Virus record (IMG/VR): IMGVR_UViG_3300025652_000451
Span: 1-26,492 of that record
Direction: 5' to 3' (one strand)
Source: a virus
Length of the DNA stretch: 26,492 nt
Shown: in pieces, positions 19,736 to 23,471 of the stretch
Layout of the letters: each line of letters begins with the position of its first letter
How positions within the stretch are numbered: position 1 is the first letter of the stretch
The notes under the pieces: model-generated
What the model saw: the letters and a program-made list of their open reading frames with translations, nothing else
The model's database searches: none
Told to the model about the DNA's origin: nothing
Program-made: the position numbers and the translations under genes

Positions 19736-19741
19736 AAGGAG
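19736..19741 (+). promoter_or_regulatory. Shine-Dalgarno site fixing a TTG start
   Basis: AAGGAG lies 5 nt before the TTG at 19747. The in-frame GTG at 19741 overlaps this site and so is unlikely to be the start. Confidence 0.7.
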
Positions 19742-19746
19742 TGATT

Positions 19747-20004
19747 TTGAAACAAAGAATTGAAAATCTAAGCTTTGAGGGGGTTATAGTACCCCTTGCA
19801 GAGGTTGAGCTTATAAGCTGTTGGGTGTCTGTTGATAACTCAGCAAAGACGCATCATAAGGTGTCAAGTATTAGAATGGTAGAAGGTGAGGAGCTTATAA
19901 CAGAGCTTAACCAATACAACCATCCATTTGAGTACAAGGGTGGTAATATCTTCCATGAAGGTATGCAGTCGCTTAGTGTTCACTTGGCAGACCCAACAAC
20001 ATAG
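19747..20004 (+). CDS. Unknown 85-aa protein, TTG start
   Basis: I do not recognise this protein. It appears soluble and beta-rich: LSFEGVIVPLAEVELISCWV, then KTHHKVSSIRMVEGEELI and FEYKGGNIFHEG. The TTG start is chosen because AAGGAG sits 5 nt upstream; the GTG six bases earlier overlaps that site. It lies between the 100-aa unknown and a membrane-anchored protein, at the border of fibre and lysis-type genes. Confidence 0.62.
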   Translation: MKQRIENLSFEGVIVPLAEVELISCWVSVDNSAKTHHKVSSIRMVEGEELITELNQYNHPFEYKGGNIFHEGMQSLSVHLADPTT

Positions 20005-20013
20005 GAGGAAAGA

Positions 20014-20655
20014 ATGGAATTTTTATTAGACTTAATCGGTGGATATGGCGGTGGGATTTCTGCTGTGGGTTTGGGTGTACTTGGTGCTTATGTTAAGCTT
20101 GAAAATAGAAACTTGACAAAGTTGATTATTGAAGGCTCTGAGGATATTAAGCACGAAAGAGCAGTTAAAACCTTTGAGAGTGCTTTTAAGACTGCTACAC
20201 GTTGCCTAGGGTATGAAATTAGGCGCATACAGCACGATAAAGAGCTACAAGGAAGACCTGAGGATATTTCTTATCGCTTTAATGCTGTTTGGTTAAACGA
20301 GTGGAAGGAAATGCTTAGATCATTAAGCGGTGCTACTTACAAGGGGAAGCCTTTAGAGTTATACGCACATTCTGCACTTACTGATTGGAATAAGAATAAA
20401 GACACGCTTCTAGATTTCTTGCAAAAGGAAATGGTGGGAGTCAAGACTCCAATTGATAACCTTGAGAAGTCTTTAAGTAGTTTCAAACACTCTCTTGAAT
20501 ATGGCTCTGAAAATTGGTTAAACACTGGCGCTTTGCATCAAGAGGAGCCTAAGCCTGAAAAGGTTATTAAAAAAAAGAATCCAAAAGCAGAGATACCAAA
20601 ATTTGAAGAGGTTGAAAAAGTAGAGCTAGAAGTCTATGAACCTGAAAAAGCTTAA
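20014..20655 (+). CDS. Protein with N-terminal membrane segment, candidate lysis-region gene (213 aa)
   Basis: I do not recognise the family. Residues 5-27 are hydrophobic and Gly-rich (GGYGGGISAVGLGVLGAYV) and would span the membrane. The remainder is soluble and helical: HERAVKTFESAFKTATRC, then WLNEWKEMLRSLSGA. The last 40 residues are Lys/Glu/Pro-rich (PKPEKVIKKKNPKAEIP). It directly precedes the lipase-like gene with a 20-nt overlap, and AGGAGG is 6 nt before the ATG. Position and the N-terminal membrane helix make it a holin or membrane-tether candidate, but the large soluble part is unusual for a holin. The function is open. Confidence 0.7.
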   Translation: MEFLLDLIGGYGGGISAVGLGVLGAYVKLENRNLTKLIIEGSEDIKHERAVKTFESAFKTATRCLGYEIRRIQHDKELQGRPEDISYRFNAVWLNEWKEMLRSLSGATYKGKPLELYAHSALTDWNKNKDTLLDFLQKEMVGVKTPIDNLEKSLSSFKHSLEYGSENWLNTGALHQEEPKPEKVIKKKNPKAEIPKFEEVEKVELEVYEPEKA

Positions 20656-21367
20656 AGAATTAAAGAGGGCAGTTAATCACTGCCTTCTTTCTTACGTTGA
20701 TAACTTTGTTGGCGATTCAATCAAACACGACTCAAAAGAAAATGATGATTGGATTTGGGAATTTGACAATGAAAGGAAGTTGTTAAGCTTTAGCATTAGA
20801 GGCTCTGATGATATAAAAGATGTACTCAAAGATATTTCCATATATCCTAAGAAAGTAAAGGGGGTAGGGTATGCTTGTGCAGGCTTTATAGATAGTGCTG
20901 AGAAGATACTAGACTACGCACTGCCACAATTCCTCAATGCTACACAAAATGGCTTTAGTATAACTCTAAGTGGGCATTCTTATGGTGGCGCAATTGCTCA
21001 AATCATGCAACAAATATTGAGGGTTAAGCACGGAATACCAACAACTTGTATTTCATTCGGAAGCCCTAGAGTATGGTTTCCATTTGCAGATACAATGGGC
21101 AAGCACTTGAGGGTTCAGATTGAAACAGACCCAATTACATTCTTGCCATTTATAGCTGGGCATTTATTTAGAATTTACAAGCACAAAGCAAGCGAACATA
21201 TAGAGCTTGAGAAACGTGGATGGTGGATGAAGGTAGAAGATCATTATCTCACAACTTATCAATCAATAATAGAAGGACTTTATGCAAAATATAATCAACA
21301 ATTTGGTAGTTTTCAGACAGCTCATAGGAGCGAGGACAACGCTAGGGCAGTTTTACCTAAACGGTAA
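20636..21367 (+). CDS. Class 3 lipase-like protein (alpha/beta hydrolase)
   Basis: This is predicted to hydrolyse acyl esters, perhaps membrane lipids. It shows the class 3 lipase (PF01764-type) layout: SIRGSDD at 53-59 in place of the usual FRGT oxyanion strand, a GHSYGGA nucleophile elbow with Ser115, FGSPRVW at 141-147, a candidate acid at Asp165 (TDPITFLPF), and a candidate catalytic His203 (DHYLTTY). There is no signal peptide, so release would need a holin or lysis. The start overlaps the previous gene by 20 nt with only a weak Shine-Dalgarno site, suggesting coupling. The 3' end overlaps the next gene by 86 nt. The hydrolase family is well supported; its substrate and a lysis role are inference. 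Confidence 0.85.
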   Translation: MNLKKLKELKRAVNHCLLSYVDNFVGDSIKHDSKENDDWIWEFDNERKLLSFSIRGSDDIKDVLKDISIYPKKVKGVGYACAGFIDSAEKILDYALPQFLNATQNGFSITLSGHSYGGAIAQIMQQILRVKHGIPTTCISFGSPRVWFPFADTMGKHLRVQIETDPITFLPFIAGHLFRIYKHKASEHIELEKRGWWMKVEDHYLTTYQSIIEGLYAKYNQQFGSFQTAHRSEDNARAVLPKR

Positions 21368-21707
21368 GTTTGCAGGGTATTCTTTAGAAGACACTGTTAG
21401 ACCTAGGCACATGAAAGTCTATGGAGAAACTGCAATACCTGATGGTATGTACCCAATGAGAAAATACATATCATCTAGATTTGGCGCTTGTCTTGCTATT
21501 GACGATGTACCAAACTTCAAGCATATTCGTATTCATGGCTTAAACGACCACACAGGCACTTTAGGCTGTATTGGCATAGGAAAGGATAGGGATATAGAAA
21601 AGATGCGTATATCTAATTGTAGGGTGGCGCTTGATGAATTGATAGCAAAGATAGATAATTCAATTCCTAGCTATATCACAGTAGTTAATGCAATCGGTAT
21701 AAAATAA
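21282..21707 (+). CDS. DUF5675-family protein, candidate peptidoglycan-active enzyme
   Basis: The sequence follows the DUF5675 pattern: TTLGQFYLNGKFAGYSLEDT, GETAIPDGMYP, VPNFKHIRIHGLNDHTGTLG, then a CIGIG motif. The family is found in phages and bacteria and its function is not established. The His-Gly plus later Gly-Cys arrangement recalls L,D-transpeptidase-like active sites; that likeness is my inference. AAGGA lies 4 nt before the ATG, inside the lipase gene, and the conserved part starts around residue 12, so this start is sound. It is the last gene before the convergent hairpin. With no other endolysin recognised, it is the best muralytic candidate in the window. Confidence 0.8.
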   Translation: MQNIINNLVVFRQLIGARTTLGQFYLNGKFAGYSLEDTVRPRHMKVYGETAIPDGMYPMRKYISSRFGACLAIDDVPNFKHIRIHGLNDHTGTLGCIGIGKDRDIEKMRISNCRVALDELIAKIDNSIPSYITVVNAIGIK

Positions 21708-22812: not shown

Positions 22813-23286
22813 TTAGTCTAATTCTATTTCAAAATCTTGAAAATCTGCAATAGCTTCTTTTATTTCCTCTTTGGAGCGAGGAACAAGAAAGTTTTTGCCT
22901 CTTAGATAGCGTTTTTGAGTACTTCTAAGCTTGCTTTGTGGTGAGTCTGTCTTTAGCTCCATTTCAAGCACTAAATTGTAATCACAGCCATCTATGCGCT
23001 TTTTTATTACTAAGTCAGGTCTTCCAAAGAAATAGTTTTTTAAATAGCTCTTTGCTTCCTCTGGACAATAATCACTAGGCGAGCTTAACCACTGATACAA
23101 CTCTTGAGGCGCATGATCAAAGTCAAGGGCAAACCTTGTGCATTCTTCCTCTGCATAGTTCTGCAACATCTCTTCTGACACACTAGCCTTTTTATACTTC
23201 TTAGGCTTAGAGCGTAGGGGAGATGGCGCTTTTTTCTCTTTTATTTTACGAGGGAATGCAAGCCCTTCGTCTTTTGGGTGTATCAA
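22813..23286 (-). CDS. VRR-NUC-like PD-(D/E)XK nuclease
   Basis: This is predicted to be a structure-specific DNA nuclease. The core is FFGRPDLVIKKR (Asp91), then LVLEMELKTDSPQSKLRSTQ with Glu110-x-Lys112 and Gln124, matching the GxPD...ExK...Q order of VRR-NUC domains. The N-terminal 85 residues are basic, then acidic-helical, and match nothing I know. The start is uncertain. TTG at 23286 overlaps the upstream stop as TTGA and has no good Shine-Dalgarno site, so coupling would be needed. The first in-frame ATG is codon 40 and would still retain the nuclease core. It probably works with ERF and RusA in recombination intermediates. Confidence 0.8.
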   Translation of the reverse strand: MIHPKDEGLAFPRKIKEKKAPSPLRSKPKKYKKASVSEEMLQNYAEEECTRFALDFDHAPQELYQWLSSPSDYCPEEAKSYLKNYFFGRPDLVIKKRIDGCDYNLVLEMELKTDSPQSKLRSTQKRYLRGKNFLVPRSKEEIKEAIADFQDFEIELD

Positions 23287-23471
23287 TGGTAGAACTTTGG
23301 GGGGTTGGGGCGCACCTGTTGCTTTATCAAAATGATAATCTTAACAATAGTGACTGCAAACCAAATTAAGCCGATTATGGCAAAACCCTCTTTGATTAGC
23401 TCAAAAAGGGAAGTGTTGCCGATGTGGACAAGTATTGCCTGCTCAGATTTTAAAAGATATTCGTTAAACAA
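23283..23471 (-). CDS. Single-pass membrane protein, TTG start (62 aa)
   Basis: I do not recognise this protein. A single membrane helix covers about residues 29-49 (GFAIIGLIWFAVTIVKIIIL), followed by a basic Lys/Arg/Pro tail, so the C-terminus is probably cytoplasmic. It has no ATG. The TTG at 23471 is supported by GAGG 7 nt upstream, and it overlaps the previous gene by 8 nt. Its stop overlaps the nuclease start. A membrane protein inside a recombination block is odd and could serve host takeover or exclusion, but that is speculation. Confidence 0.65.
   Translation of the reverse strand: MFNEYLLKSEQAILVHIGNTSLFELIKEGFAIIGLIWFAVTIVKIIILIKQQVRPNPPKFYH

Follow-up and report, generated by a model that had tools for sequence, protein, structure and literature searches.

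In the canonical lysis cassettes of Gram-negative phages, the holin, endolysin and Rz/Rz1 genes lie in a late position, overlap one another and have small membrane neighbours, and lysis ordinarily ends with the fusion of the membranes by spanins. Lipolytic enzymes encoded together with a holin and an endolysin, and thought to aid the opening of the outer layers, are represented by LysB of mycobacteriophage Ms6, a mycolylarabinogalactan esterase acting on a mycobacterial envelope, and by a GDSL-type lipase that a Pseudomonas syringae phage encodes in its lysis region (PMC12173070). Among wall enzymes, members of the YkuD family have been reviewed as transpeptidases, carboxypeptidases and endopeptidases (PMC12729407), and the domain table of the PhaLP database paper gives YkuD among the catalytic domains of phage lytic proteins, with 10 occurrences (PMC8310338). 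DUF5675 was not found in the passages of that table that were consulted; PhaLP domains are assigned by sequence families, and DUF5675 matches none of those.

The locus analysed here comes from an uncultured, P22-like podovirus, whose whole virus record of exactly 26,492 bp (26.5 kb) is called the window and may be a fragment. The late position and the overlapping genes are common to this locus and the canonical cassettes; unlike them, the window showed neither a spanin nor a clear holin, and a lipase was present instead. This enzyme is a class 3 lipase and thus belongs to a hydrolase family different from those of the P. syringae phage enzyme and LysB, and the envelope concerned is not a mycobacterial one. 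A preliminary description of the locus had proposed a candidate lysis cassette. The exchange of the DUF5675 gene for an M15-like peptidase in a relative, together with the holin and spanin neighbours of DUF5675 in other phages, makes it very probable that the three genes are the cell-bursting unit of the phage. We consider it likely that the DUF5675 protein serves as endolysin, the lipase as accessory lysis enzyme and the product of the first gene (g213) as membrane-associated partner.

Organization of the locus

The window holds late genes and is devoid of the early region. The late block upstream of the cassette encodes terminase, portal (phrog_156, 9e-77), scaffold, coat, head-closure and ejection proteins and two long tail-fibre proteins, and the three cassette ORFs follow after the tail-fibre genes, all on the + strand. 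Beyond the cassette, genes for a RusA-like resolvase, an HNH endonuclease, Gp157 and ERF are located on the opposite strand. The first cassette gene (20014..20655) encodes g213, which is 213 aa long and has a hydrophobic stretch of borderline strength at the N terminus, a helical middle and a Pro/Glu/Lys-rich tail; the second (20636..21367) encodes the 243-aa lipase and the third (21282..21707) the 141-aa DUF5675 protein. The ORFs were found as previously reported, and the overlap of the three late genes is real: it amounts to 20 nt between g213 and the lipase and 86 nt between the lipase and DUF5675, and the three genes are therefore probably translationally coupled. Directly upstream of the cassette, an 87-aa gene (19741..20004, + strand) gave no family match in Pfam or PHROG.

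When the main proteins of the window were scanned with Pfam and/or PHROG, no lysozyme, amidase, transglycosylase, wall peptidase or spanin was revealed, in agreement with what the preliminary description had noticed. The spanin families of Pfam and PHROG were likewise absent among the cassette proteins of this possibly fragmentary record, and inspection of the hydrophobic ORFs of the window showed neither an Rz/Rz1-like pair nor a lipoprotein with a C-terminal helix.

Family and predicted fold of the DUF5675 protein

The third gene had been assigned to DUF5675, and this held firmly: the protein matched PF18925 with an E-value of 1.3e-21 and 77 bits, against a curated cut-off of 26.7. An AF2 model built from 101 sequences reached a pLDDT of 93.4. 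Foldseek alone gave weak matches with this model. The preliminary description had suggested a comparison with L,D-transpeptidases, and when the Foldseek matches were re-examined in a structural second look, all 41 listed entries were L,D-transpeptidase (YkuD)-type folds, with Z-scores of 6.0-9.4 over at most 115 aligned residues. Those at Z 8.8-9.4 included YkuD (1y7m), DpaA (8ikr), Bd1075 (7o21) and Tlde1a (7uo3). DpaA detaches Braun's lipoprotein.

The proposed catalytic residues, His85 and Cys96, were invariant in 14 BLAST-selected homologues and also across the 101-sequence set, in the latter partly by selection. The surrounding motif, IH..N...[ST].GC, resembles the IHGTN...SHGC of LdtB, with a shorter His-Cys spacing and the second His missing. 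The model has its fold in common with YkuD-type L,D-transpeptidases; unlike these, the protein has no export signal, belongs to a family encoded by phages beside holins and shows no sequence relationship detectable with Pfam or hhalign. PF03734 (YkuD) did not match it, and a Pfam scan at E-values up to 0.1 listed DUF5675 alone. Alignment with hhalign to the single sequences of E. coli LdtB and DpaA was not significant, and a PDB sequence search with the DUF5675 profile gave chance-level matches only. Because the PF03734 sequence match was lacking, the protein was not filed as a YkuD member, its likeness to that family being one of predicted fold.

Comparison with a colinear relative

A relative was found by a pattern built from the lipase motif. 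This viral contig of 37,978 bp (L397, with the pieces L486 and L487) and the window are colinear all the way from portal to RusA. The relative has kept homologues of the 87-aa gene (45% identity; L486:19591-19950, at the same position), of g213 (42%) and of the lipase (50%); the g213 homologue lies directly upstream of the lipase, and the Ser-Asp-His triad of the lipase is intact. Given this conservation and the E-values of the two enzymes, chance can be considered excluded for the lipase and DUF5675 assignments.

The record of the relative is without DUF5675. The slot is held by a 144-aa protein with the M15 zinc motif SSHKFGYAFD...WCHIE, which matched PF08291 with an E-value of 2.8e-4 and 21.4 bits, just under the curated cut-off of 23.2. 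The swap of one putative wall enzyme for an unrelated one at a single spot is as expected for an endolysin slot, and this comparison is the strongest single evidence concerning the window itself. It also bears on another explanation, according to which DUF5675 would be a wall-modifying or virion-associated protein, acting in entry, superinfection exclusion or remodelling during infection, with the true lysis genes in the early region that the window, as a possible fragment, lacks. We regard this as quite unlikely. The relative includes its early region, and no other endolysin was noticed there when the contig was read, which was done without a family-by-family scan.

Two further features were observed in the comparison of the two phages. 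Just upstream of the terminase genes of the relative (L486 1939-2461), an 88-aa lipoprotein overlaps a 96-aa one-helix ORF, possibly a spanin pair, which is absent from the window phage at that spot. Beyond the cassette, the gene at 22813-23286 of the window, a neighbour of a small one-helix ORF (23283-23471), is 64% identical to its counterpart, above the other shared genes.

DUF5675 in other phages

Searching viral contigs with the cassette proteins one at a time gave no match. DUF5675 was found by tblastn in 156 phage records, and a degenerate DNA pattern for IH..N....T.GCI had matches in at least 120 viral contigs; every one of the 139 loci collected contained an ORF matching the DUF5675 profile. 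Nearly all named bacterial contigs with the motif belonged to Gram-negative groups.

The neighbourhood was counted for 111 DUF5675 representatives (70% identity). A membrane gene of up to 220 aa, oriented like DUF5675, stood immediately upstream in 44 of 104 cases and immediately downstream in 43 of 108, against 32 of 409 positions at a distance of 5-8 genes. The most frequent Pfam families were GTA_holin_3TM, Phage_holin_4_1 and Phage_holin_8 among upstream neighbours and r1t_holin, GTA_holin_3TM and Peptidase_C92 among downstream ones, while with PHROGs, Rz-like spanins and holins headed both lists; the count for each family was small because the neighbours were diverse. These small membrane neighbours are a further likeness to canonical cassettes. 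MW202455 carries two multi-helix ORFs, DUF5675, an Rz-like protein and a lipoprotein; a Gilliamella contig has a holin-like ORF, DUF5675, a small membrane ORF and an Rz-like protein; and in several contigs DUF5675 is followed by a lipoprotein with a C-terminal helix, resembling a unimolecular spanin. Such cassettes of holin, DUF5675 and spanin argue against a wall-modifying or virion-associated role.

The presence of other endolysins was also assessed. Phage_lysozyme, Amidase_2 and Peptidase_M15_4 were each found in none of 50 DUF5675 records, which again speaks against lysis genes elsewhere, and an SLT match was obtained in 4 of the 50. Among 40 unselected contigs, Phage_lysozyme occurred in 5, Amidase_2 in 2 and DUF5675 in 1. 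The difference for Phage_lysozyme or Amidase_2 (0/50 versus 7/40; Fisher p 0.0025) refers to two families and to a small control set picked by an arbitrary 14-mer, with hosts unmatched. Pfam recognised 25 families among 50 CDS scanned from VA-RY-3, an isolated lytic Vibrio phage, and DUF5675 was the sole recognisable wall enzyme. In the lytic Vibrio phages R21Y and Virtus, DUF5675 adjoins a gene with a TM helix, and a word search of the papers on these two phages found no holin or endolysin gene named.

In Crassvirales records, DUF5675 is annotated as L,D-carboxypeptidase/transpeptidase and lies beside a 'lysis regulatory protein/holin' (e.g. MT774378, OQ221537). These proteins belong to the same family (29-44% identity range among BLAST-selected homologues), have similar neighbours and were assigned the same proposed activity; they differ in that the stretches read held no class 3 lipase, and their annotation is by similarity only. 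No functional test of these proteins came up in the papers searched, and literature searches on lysis genes of crAss phages were likewise without result.

DUF5675 was also present as an extra gene in four complete circular microviruses of 4.6-6.4 kb (L143 3009-3419; L144 3442-3843; L145 3650-4042; L146 1678-2067, the last copy being unannotated), and it is possibly the whole lysis system of these phages. In L145, an overlapping 71-aa ORF for a lipoprotein-like membrane protein follows the DUF5675 gene. In Sphingomonas phage PAU, gp261 (L009 4022-4777) combines DUF5675 with a C-terminal extension that by eye resembles a peptidoglycan-binding domain.

Other copies occur in different settings. 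In two Vibrio Ackermannviridae (L014 4989-5438; L015 4953-5417), the gene directly follows that for the portal and precedes that for the prohead protease, and DUF5675-like folds are also present in phage proteins of more than 800 aa. Four Nitrosospira contigs (L264, L277, L319 and L321) carry DUF5675 genes, and in L264 and L277 these are located amid ordinary bacterial genes, outside any obvious prophage. Because of the copies in head-gene clusters, in very large phage proteins and in non-prophage bacterial contigs, the family is broader than lysis. The copies between portal and protease and those in very large proteins are what a wall-modifying or virion-associated protein might look like, and the L,D-transpeptidase fold is best known from wall cross-linking enzymes. 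For the window phage, however, the slot exchange in the relative and the holin and spanin neighbours elsewhere favour the endolysin. DUF5675 is most simply the endolysin here, and the family is a large one in phages of Gram-negative bacteria. The preliminary description had seen in the missing classical endolysin an unusual mode of lysis: the absence from the window stands, but its strangeness does not, as DUF5675 is most likely an overlooked endolysin.

The class 3 lipase

The lipase matched PF01764 (Lipase_3) with an E-value of 6.6e-16, its score of 58.9 bits exceeding the cut-off of 22. Three motifs, GHS115YGG, TD165PITFLP and EDH203YL, place Ser115, Asp165 and His203 at the canonical Ser-Asp-His positions, so that the triad was found at the residues previously named, and the protein carries no export signal, as had also been noticed.

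A pattern for the lipase motifs had matches in at least 119 viral contigs. In six of these (L422, L420, L444, L445, L480 and L482), the class 3 lipase is directly preceded by an Rz-like gene that overlaps with a gene for an Rz1-like lipoprotein. A GH108-type endolysin adjoins the lipase in L429 (phrog_315, 1.5e-37) and L375, and an M15-like peptidase does so in L374 and L447; the M15-like and spanin calls were made partly from motifs and by inspection. Judged from these gene neighbourhoods, this type of lipase recurs in phage lysis cassettes. Where Rz/Rz1-like genes co-occur with it, it cannot be a plain replacement for spanins. Lipase_3 was found in none of the 50 other DUF5675 records, and the pairing in the window is therefore rare, while each half is recurrent.

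It might be argued that DUF5675 is the endolysin and that the lipase, as an accessory gene in the same transcript, serves some purpose other than lysis, with lipid of the host or of the extracellular space as its target. The lack of Lipase_3 in the other DUF5675 records, the many viral class 3 lipases with no lysis gene alongside and the missing export signal would all fit. We nevertheless consider this unlikely, as two diverged phages have both kept the lipase at its place between g213 and the endolysin slot, and several unrelated contigs have a class 3 lipase adjoining a GH108, M15-like or Rz/Rz1-like gene. We also rejected the idea of a virion tail protein: the lipase is short, has no tail domain and is conserved between g213 and the endolysin slot. 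An accessory role in lysis remains our preferred reading.

Two other lipase candidates were set aside. Phage records gave a single lipase match, MT836410; this protein of 697 aa is encoded close to a VgrG-like gene and likely belongs to a bacterial secretion region. A GDSL lipase adjoining DUF5675 in contig L076 is a probable tail protein of 525 aa and was not counted.

g213 and candidate holins

The preliminary description had given g213 an N-terminal membrane helix. The hydrophobic N terminus was confirmed, but a clear helix was not: the best 19-residue Kyte-Doolittle mean was 1.43, under the usual threshold of 1.6, and 1.55 in the relative. No Pfam or PHROG family, and no holin family, matched g213, and an AF2 model from two sequences was unusable (pLDDT 44).

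One explanation is that g213 is itself the holin, a single-helix protein like T of phage T4, which would make the cassette complete as holin, lipase and endolysin. It is the first cassette gene, its hydrophobic N terminus and full length are kept in the relative, and its length is similar to that of T4 T. On the other side stand the two hydrophobicity values, both under the threshold, the charges flanking the hydrophobic stretch, which on inspection suggest that the soluble part stays cytoplasmic, the missing holin family match and the existence of other conserved small membrane ORFs. This explanation is accordingly doubtful, and we prefer to describe g213 as a membrane-associated partner that is a candidate for a holin or a lysis regulator.

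Two of the other small ORFs deserve mention. A 62-aa ORF on the - strand (23283-23471) has one strong helix, with a hydrophobic segment mean of 2.76, and is kept in the relative, with a pairwise score of 58 against a shuffle maximum of 7; it is another candidate for the role of small membrane lysis protein, or else an unrelated early gene. In contig L150, whose portal is identical to that of the window, a 58-aa ORF with two predicted helices (857-1033) lies upstream of the terminase small subunit gene and is also kept in the relative (L486:3274-3483), and it is a candidate holin.

Proposed mechanism and implications

The endolysin slot, the fold and the recurrence of class 3 lipases in lysis cassettes emerge from the comparisons themselves; from these we infer the reactions, the order of events and the involvement of a holin as follows. 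DUF5675 would be a cytoplasmic enzyme that depends on Cys and has an L,D-transpeptidase-like fold, and a holin would let it through the inner membrane. It would then cut the peptide stems of the wall, most likely by hydrolysing the mDAP-D-Ala bond or one close to it; where stems are cross-linked, cleavage of the mDAP-D-Ala bond would open 4-3 links. As it has no export signal, the lipase would need to leave the cell through the same opening as the endolysin, and it would hydrolyse envelope lipid, most likely that of the outer membrane, and so help or replace the spanin step. g213 would act within the cassette as the membrane-associated partner.

In a wider sense, it is possible, and we put it forward tentatively, that DUF5675 constitutes a large unrecognised endolysin family of L,D-transpeptidase fold in phages infecting Gram-negative bacteria, with no second wall enzyme at work even in microviruses of 4.6 kb, and that class 3 lipases recur as a distinct component that breaks the envelope, with spanins or instead of them. 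Genomes with DUF5675 include those of crAss-like, Vibrio and Cellulophaga phages and of some microviruses, and in several of them our analysis recognised no other endolysin. If DUF5675 is indeed an endolysin, a common gap in phage annotation would be closed, and a fold known mainly for building wall cross-links would have been turned to wall breaking; class 3 lipases beside endolysins and spanins would likewise add a lipid-degrading step to Gram-negative lysis.
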